DNA of 33,479 nt from the NCBI GenBank assembly GCA_003551565.1, contig PUMZ01000344.1, positions 1-33,479 of the forward strand. Direction: 5' to 3'. Source of the stretch: Candidatus Brocadiaceae bacterium. Its GTDB lineage: Bacteria > Planctomycetota > Brocadiia > SM23-32. This document shows positions 29,843 to 33,479 of this stretch, in pieces. The first letter of the stretch is position 1; each line of letters opens with the position of its first letter. The notes beneath the pieces were generated by a model. It was not told the origin of the DNA. It saw only the letters and a program-made list of their open reading frames with translations, and ran no database searches. The position numbers were made by a program, and so were the translations under genes.

Positions 29843-31039
29843 TCAGGTATGGTAGTCGGCATTGATCTCGACATATTTTTTCGAAAGATCGCATGTCCAC
29901 ACCGACGCAGCCGCCCGGCCGGCGCCCAGGTTGATTTCTATCCGCACCTCATCTTTTTTCAGTTCCTCGCAGGCGTTCTCGCCCGTCGGGATCCCATTGC
30001 TCAACACCCGTACGTCTCCCAGCAGCAGTCCGGCATCGCCGGGATCGAACTTCGCCCCGCTCCGGCCGGCCGCGCAGACGATCCGCCCCCAATTGGGGTC
30101 CTCGCCATGTACGGCGCATTTGACCAGCAGGGAGTTGGCGATGGATTTTGCCACTTTGACCGCCTCGCGGCGGTTCCTGGCGCCGGACGCCCGGACCACG
30201 ATCAGTTTTGTGGCTCCTTCGCCGTCGGCCGCGATCTGCATCGAGAGATCCCGCATCAGATGGAACAAAGCATCCGCAAATTTCCTCTTCGCTCCGGCAT
30301 TGGTCCGTACCGCCGCCCTGCCGCTGGAAACGAGAAAAACGCTGTCGTTGGTGCTTGCATCCCCATCGACGGTTATCATGTTGAAGGTCTCCTCCACACA
30401 TCGTTTCAGGAGATCATGCAGTTCGTGGGCGCCGGCCGGCATATCGGTCGTAACAAACGCCAGCATCGTGGCCATATCCGGTGCGATCATCCCGGATCCC
30501 TTCGCCATCGCGCCGATCGAGACGGGGACTCCTCCGCATTCAAACCTTACGGCGCAGGACTTCGGGCGGGTGTCGGTGGTCATGATCGCTTTTTCGGCAT
30601 TTCTTGCCGACAGGCCGGCAGCGGAGAGCGTCGCAAACGCTTCCCGGAGACCCTGTTCCACCCGGGTCATGGGCAGGGGTCTTCCGATGATGCCGGTGGA
30701 AGCCACGCCCACCTGTTCGGGCCGGCAGCCGGCCAGGGACGCTACGGTTTTTGCCATCTGTGCGGCATCCCTGCTCCCCTGTGCTCCCGTACATGCGTTG
30801 GCGTTTCCGCTGCAGACGGCGATCGCCCGGAGGCTGTCGGAGGGCAGGATCGACCGGGACCATGCCACCGGCGGGGCGGCGAAGAGGTTCCGGGTAAAGA
30901 CCCCGGCCGCGCTGAGTTCCTCTTCACCCATCAGCAGCGCTATATCCGGTTCACCGGCGGTCTCTTTCAATCCGCAGGAACTCGACCCGGCCCGGAACCC
31001 CGGCGGCGTCAGAACGGAACCGTCCTTTATACATTCCAT
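29843..31039 (-). CDS. argJ: bifunctional ornithine acetyltransferase / N-acetylglutamate synthase (ArgJ)
   Basis: GVFTRNLFAAPPVAWSR, GNANACTG, VASTGIIGRPLPMTRV, autocleavage region KGSGMIAPDMATMLAFVTTD, DPNWGRIVCAAGRSG. Confidence 0.95.
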   Translation of the reverse strand: MECIKDGSVLTPPGFRAGSSSCGLKETAGEPDIALLMGEEELSAAGVFTRNLFAAPPVAWSRSILPSDSLRAIAVCSGNANACTGAQGSRDAAQMAKTVASLAGCRPEQVGVASTGIIGRPLPMTRVEQGLREAFATLSAAGLSARNAEKAIMTTDTRPKSCAVRFECGGVPVSIGAMAKGSGMIAPDMATMLAFVTTDMPAGAHELHDLLKRCVEETFNMITVDGDASTNDSVFLVSSGRAAVRTNAGAKRKFADALFHLMRDLSMQIAADGEGATKLIVVRASGARNRREAVKVAKSIANSLLVKCAVHGEDPNWGRIVCAAGRSGAKFDPGDAGLLLGDVRVLSNGIPTGENACEELKKDEVRIEINLGAGRAAASVWTCDLSKKYVEINADYHT

Positions 31040-32011: not shown

Positions 32012-33214
32012 TTAATATTTTTTAGCCCCCTCACCTATACGCCCCATGAGTTCAAGGTTGCATACATGTATGAGAGGAAGCCCGTCGTCATCTGACACCA
32101 GCTTTCCCAATCTATCTAACGAAAGCAGTATGTGGCTTCCTTTCAGGTTGAGCGCTTGCACTCCCGCCCCCGAAAGGCGTCGGGCTGTTTTTTTAATGCA
32201 GGCTTCATAAATTTTCTGGTCTATGATGCCGCGCCGATATGCCCTCAGGGCATCAATACTTTTATAATATTCCTCATCTTTTTCCGCAAGATATTCATCC
32301 GGTCCGTTCCAGTAACCCCAGATCGTTACGTATCGGTGCTGCAAGCTCAGTACCGGGTGGCCTTCCGGGGTCACCAGGTGCCTGTGGCTTCTGAACCGCC
32401 GCCTGTCGGTGGGGCCTTCCTGTTCTTCATCCCGCCGGTGCCCACTCATGTAGACGGCCCGGGGATACACGGTGGGGATACCGCGCCTGTTCAGATCAAA
32501 GCTCAGTGCAATCTCCTCGAACGGGTTGTTATAGCCATGCGAGATTTTTTTAACGCCATCCCGATCCAGCACGTCCACATCCGGGACGCGTCCGACTTTC
32601 GATACCCGGCAGACGACATGCACGTTATCCTTGGTCCGCGTATCATACGTTCTCCCATGTTCGGAGAGGTTTTGTTTCGGGCTTTCGCGCCATTTTTCCG
32701 GCAAAAAATACTCGAAAAGTTCCGGGTCTTTTCCCACGACCCAGAGCACGCCCCCGGTGCTTTCAACTCGACCATAGACATAACTGACGCCGAATATTTC
32801 GACCGGGTGCAGGTCCGGCGGAAATTGTTTGTCTGTCTCAAACCGTTTGGCTTGCTTTTTCAGGTAGCCGCTGCGCCTTGCCGCCTTCACCCGCCGTTCG
32901 TGTTCGGGGGTACTTTCCAGCAGATCAAAATCCACCAGCGCATAAAGCGTCTGGCCGTTGCGATCGGAGACCGGTCTTCGTGATTTTGAAGGGCGGAGTA
33001 TGACGTGGTGGGGCTTATTGTCCCGGACGATGAATCCCTTCTCTGCCAATTCACGGGCGGCCCGCTCGGTGAGACGGTGCATCTGATGCTCTTCTAAAAT
33101 CCCTTCTTTCCGGGCTTCCGCGGCATCCATACCTTTTATCCACTCGTAGATGACAGCATATTGCCGGTTGGGGTCCAGAGTGACTTCCCGGTGGCTTTCC
33201 TGCAGGTCTTTCAT
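32012..33214 (-). CDS. uncharacterised protein with divergent kinase-like motifs (duplicated units)
   Basis: 400 aa; GFIVRDNKPHHVILRP...YALVDFDLLESTPEHE resembles a kinase catalytic loop plus DFG-like segment; related segment near the C-terminus (VQALNLKGSHILLSLDRLGKLVSDDDGLPLIHVCNLELM). Confidence 0.7.
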   Translation of the reverse strand: MKDLQESHREVTLDPNRQYAVIYEWIKGMDAAEARKEGILEEHQMHRLTERAARELAEKGFIVRDNKPHHVILRPSKSRRPVSDRNGQTLYALVDFDLLESTPEHERRVKAARRSGYLKKQAKRFETDKQFPPDLHPVEIFGVSYVYGRVESTGGVLWVVGKDPELFEYFLPEKWRESPKQNLSEHGRTYDTRTKDNVHVVCRVSKVGRVPDVDVLDRDGVKKISHGYNNPFEEIALSFDLNRRGIPTVYPRAVYMSGHRRDEEQEGPTDRRRFRSHRHLVTPEGHPVLSLQHRYVTIWGYWNGPDEYLAEKDEEYYKSIDALRAYRRGIIDQKIYEACIKKTARRLSGAGVQALNLKGSHILLSLDRLGKLVSDDDGLPLIHVCNLELMGRIGEGAKKY

Positions 33215-33479
33215 TCAGTAGCTTTTCCGGCCGATCCGCTCGCTCTCCACAAATTTGCGCGGCACATAGATCGCCAGAGGCTTATGGGTCAGGACGGATT
33301 TTCCGTATTTTCGCGCGAGATCTTTTAGCTCCATAACCAGCCCGAATTCCTCAAAGGGACTGTTGAACTTTGCTCCCGCGATGTCCGAGACTTCTGTCTC
33401 GCCGGGGATATCCTGTCCCATCCGGCTCCATTTGAGGACGATCTGCTTTGAGACTTCGTCGACCGGTTTGGTCTGTATC
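33215..33479 (-). CDS. C-terminal part of an uncharacterised protein (5' end beyond window), in the same frame as 32012..33214 and separated only by a TGA
   Basis: Open to the window edge: IQTKPVDEVSKQIVLKWSRMGQDIPGETEVSDIAGAKFNSPFEEFGLVMELKDLARKYGKSVLTHKPLAIYVPRKFVESERIGRKSY*. Shares PFEE...PLAIYV with NNPFEEIALSFDL...PRAVYM in the downstream ORF. Confidence 0.6.
   Translation of the reverse strand, partial: IQTKPVDEVSKQIVLKWSRMGQDIPGETEVSDIAGAKFNSPFEEFGLVMELKDLARKYGKSVLTHKPLAIYVPRKFVESERIGRKSY

Follow-up and report, generated by a model that had tools for sequence, protein, structure and literature searches.

Comparison with described systems

The described situation closest to the present locus is the nonsense mutation, or incipient pseudogene, in which a lone stop, private to one copy, occupies a sense position of a gene that is otherwise intact and whose homologues are uninterrupted. 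The gene analysed here is alike in all of these respects; it differs in that it carries no further decay, and an error in the base retains some probability. Bacterial selenoproteins also have an in-frame TGA within a longer homologous frame, but here the ancestral residue is Trp, the stop is not conserved and the selenocysteine (Sec) machinery was not found.

With regard to the encoded protein, the nearest described fold is that of the protein kinases and their relatives (PknB, ULK2, WaaP, WbdD), with which the first unit shares K, RD.KP and DFE in kinase order. However, the best structural match has an E-value of only ~1e-4 with low TM-scores, and no Pfam or NCBIfam family is matched. Furthermore, two units stand in tandem here, the second of which lacks RD.KP, and a His is found where kinases have the catalytic-loop Asn.

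The interrupted gene

The window, i.e., the whole stretch of 33,479 nucleotides that was analysed, makes up the whole of contig C414, which belongs to a medium-quality MAG of 416 contigs (88% complete, 6.5% contamination). On its minus strand, an in-frame TGA (33217-33215) lies between an 87-aa fragment (33218-33478), whose frame is open to the contig end, and a 400-aa ORF (32012-33214), which ends with a TAA stop. The codon directly after the TGA, at 33214, is an ATG in the same frame, exactly as a first-pass annotation of this DNA had described. The contig end is 262-264 bases from the TGA, and the 5′ end of the gene (about 71 aa) is missing from the window. With an intact homologue as the query, the match starts at its residue 72 and runs through one TGA; when the remaining contigs of the genome were searched for the absent 5′ part, no copy besides the one in the window turned up. 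The 488 codons of the gene contain no further stop. The 87-aa fragment, with 97.7% amino acid identity to the same-genus loci L002 and L003, carries IVLKW, whose VAIK-like Lys is encoded at 33433-33431, as well as the SPFEEF stretch (within 33218-33478), and the 400-aa ORF, with 91% amino acid identity to L002, comprises the remainder of a first unit and the whole of a second.

A tandem, probably kinase-like protein

The first-pass annotation had noticed that the protein pattern across the TGA parallels one within the downstream ORF, and had proposed that the TGA splits one homologous unit. Both observations were borne out: the second half of the 400-aa ORF matches the first unit through the TGA (E 1.6e-6, tblastn against the locus), and a profile–profile comparison of the two halves of intact homologues finds them homologous (hhalign; probability 99.3%, E 8e-21, 234 columns). 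The intact protein is built of one ~275-aa unit duplicated in tandem, with the TGA inside unit 1. This unit, cut by the TGA and truncated by the contig end, occupies 32867-33478, the boundary being approximate and set by the split at residue 275 of L002 that was used for hhalign; unit 2, with the terminal stop, occupies 32012-32866.

A kinase-like nature of the unit had likewise been proposed, and structural modelling points the same way. AlphaFold2 modelled L002 with moderate confidence from a 10-sequence alignment (pLDDT 75.5, pTM 0.56). All 50 matches listed by Foldseek against the PDB were kinases or kinase-fold proteins, among them PknB, CDK12, ULK2, WaaP and WbdD, with a best E-value of 1.1e-4 and low TM-scores, suggesting that a kinase-like fold is probable. 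Unit 1 presents, in kinase order, IVLKW, SPFEEF, a hinge-like YEWIKG, VRDNKP and DFE. The catalytic-loop-like VRDNKP (33011-33028) is placed on HRDLKP of ULK2 by a weak profile match (E 0.12), and D224 and K226 of L002 are invariant in the 10-sequence alignment. The DFG-like motif (32924-32932) reads DFD in the window and DFE in all aligned homologues. Unit 2, which does not have the RD.KP motif of unit 1, may be a pseudokinase.

The TGA corresponds to Trp159 of L002, which the model places in a short, poorly modelled helix between strands 138-143 and 179-183, so that the TGA parts the Lys/Glu portion of unit 1 from the portion with the catalytic-loop-like and DFG-like motifs. According to the model, truncation at the TGA should abolish unit 1, which we infer to be a kinase. 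Pfam and NCBIfam scans of both window pieces gave no match, Pfam on ten homologues gave nothing above chance level, PHROGs and PADLOC gave none on L002 and the 400-aa ORF, and literature searching returned nothing useful.

Homologues at the position of the stop

A scan of public genomes gave ten loci, to which searches of related genomes added more; some loci are duplicates, the same sequence having been reached via two tools (L002/L013, L003/L018 and L005/L015). When homologues were aligned across the TGA, as the first-pass annotation had advised, each of the 12 distinct full-length homologues inspected (~554-700 codons, counted stop to stop) proved to be one ORF through this position, without an internal stop. 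The codon at the site is TGG (Trp) in three same-genus copies, i.e., L002 (=L013), L003 (=L018) and L014, and CGG, CGC, AAG or ATA (Arg, Lys, Ile) in nine more distant homologues, while TGA occurs, among the homologues inspected, in the window gene only. The residues found at the site are thus W, R, K and I, with neither Cys nor Sec among them. Separate conserved genes with the same boundary, which the annotation had named as the observation that would speak against an interrupted unit, were looked for, and no homologue inspected is split there.

In the same-genus relatives, the site reads Trp-Met, so that the Met codon after the TGA site is common to them. Because these relatives carry TGG beside the same Met codon, the stop is best read as a derived, private, one-base change, a G>A transition from TGG to TGA, and the ATG after it as inherited coding sequence, i.e., an ancestral in-frame Met codon rather than a start that evolved for coupling.

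Age of the lesion and selection

The alignment between the window and L002 is free of gaps on either side of the TGA, with nucleotide identities of 92.7% upstream and 89.7% downstream and pairwise dN/dS values of 0.03 and 0.12, respectively. With L014 as the outgroup, the private changes downstream of the TGA on the window branch amount to 22 synonymous and 11 non-synonymous, the corresponding counts for the intact copies being 17:16 (L002) and 27:25 (L003). Tested by these branch counts, the window branch shows no sign of relaxed selection, and the gene, when searched for further decay beyond the TGA, has none; the remainder is intact. The absence of relaxed selection implies that the stop is either recent or not real. 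Similarly, the lack of decay fits only a young lesion or an error, and the term that applies is nonsense mutation, not established pseudogene.

Three private downstream changes fall at otherwise invariant sites (E>D in DFE, R>S and S>N) and were considered as a possible mark of relaxation. Other members of the family have similar numbers of such changes, and the branch counts show no relaxation.

Origin of the stop

Among the options that the first-pass annotation had offered, the TGG of the three same-genus copies favours a recent nonsense mutation over programmed recoding or a conserved split gene. The base is presumably real, and the stop is probably a recent nonsense mutation in one gene copy, with ordinary loss of function. 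Normally, the gene encodes one protein of ~555-600 aa that has two kinase-like domains in tandem. Here, one G>A change would have converted a Trp codon of domain 1 to TGA, at which translation would end, leaving a truncated product that lacks both the catalytic-loop-like and the DFG-like motif. Reinitiation at the old in-frame Met codon would then be the only route to the 400-aa remainder. The lesion would be young, given an intact remainder and a substitution pattern typical of purifying selection.

Two points count against a nonsense mutation. First, the TGA lies near a contig end of a medium-quality MAG, where the consensus is least safe. Second, a base error would equally leave neither decay nor relaxed selection. 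An error of base calling or assembly consensus, or a base from a minority strain, with the real gene intact, is unlikely but carries appreciable weight; the advice of the first-pass annotation to re-sequence the site points to such an error. It agrees with a one-base lesion that stands alone in an otherwise intact gene whose selection is not relaxed, with the short distance to the contig end, and with the fact that the same-genus genome G001 has two diverged copies of the kinase-like gene. However, direct evidence of an error was not seen, and the contig 5′ of the TGA reads cleanly in frame, with the high identity to relatives given above.

It is improbable that both pieces are made, through reinitiation at the adjacent ATG or low-level read-through, and work together. 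The adjacency of TGA and ATG, which at first sight suits such an arrangement, is inherited, this Met being ancestral within the genus, and the low dN/dS downstream of the TGA, which would also suit it, is explained by the history that preceded a young stop; moreover, no homologue is split at the site, and the cut falls inside domain 1. It is quite improbable that the pieces together restore a working double kinase-like protein via stop-restart or read-through, with the stop tolerated or used for control. The maintenance of a split by translational coupling, another of the options offered, was also considered and is contradicted by the uninterrupted homologues, which have no boundary here.

Searches of the genome (MAG 88% complete) gave no match for selA, selB-like matches that were all below the cut-off, and no tRNA-Sec above the cut-off, the best-scoring places being ordinary Leu and Ser tRNAs. 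The tRNA-Trp found has the anticodon CCA (4 of 38 tRNA matches were left untyped), prfB is present, with an uninterrupted match above the cut-off, and the window, scanned against Rfam at gathering cut-offs, gave no match. Programmed recoding is hardly credible, since a TGA read as Trp, although it would restore the protein from an ancestral Trp codon, is opposed by the CCA anticodon and the presence of prfB, and read-through as selenocysteine by Sec machinery that is below the cut-off or without a match and by homologues with a sense codon that points to Trp, not Sec.

Distribution and neighbourhood of the family

An isolated nonsense codon in a single MAG, although accurately observed, is an ordinary phenomenon that matters little. 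It does serve as a warning: an in-frame stop close to the end of a contig calls for comparison with homologues before one invokes recoding. The kinase-like family is of more interest than the TGA. Its tandem-duplicated members (L002, 3722-5398; L003, 805-2529; and others) match no Pfam or NCBIfam family and are patchily distributed, being present in 6 of 99 relatives and, across the phylum, in 11 of 296 genomes, counts that include weak matches as well as the window's own genome. The hosts are planctomycete MAGs and also MAGs labelled Actinomycetota and Spirochaetales.

The kinase-like gene (window 32012-33478) has 90% DNA identity to a copy in G001, whereas the nearby argJ (29843-31039; Pfam ArgJ) reaches only 67% identity with its match there, and L002 and the window have almost no flanking DNA in common. 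Because of this difference in identity and the barely shared flanks, horizontal exchange of the kinase-like gene is suggested, with argJ as the one comparison gene.

Elsewhere in the window, the plus strand at 458-2596 holds four consecutive open stretches in the same frame, with one stop codon between each. Pfam gave no match on these four stretches; given the GC-rich DNA, the frames may be spurious. In G001, the final 89 bases of argJ have two more equal-score matches, at L080 (C358:3175-3263) and L081 (C223:5010-5098). One of these extra matches is inverted and lies ~108 bases behind argJ itself, and the repeat of the argJ end in G001 is possibly an assembly palindrome.
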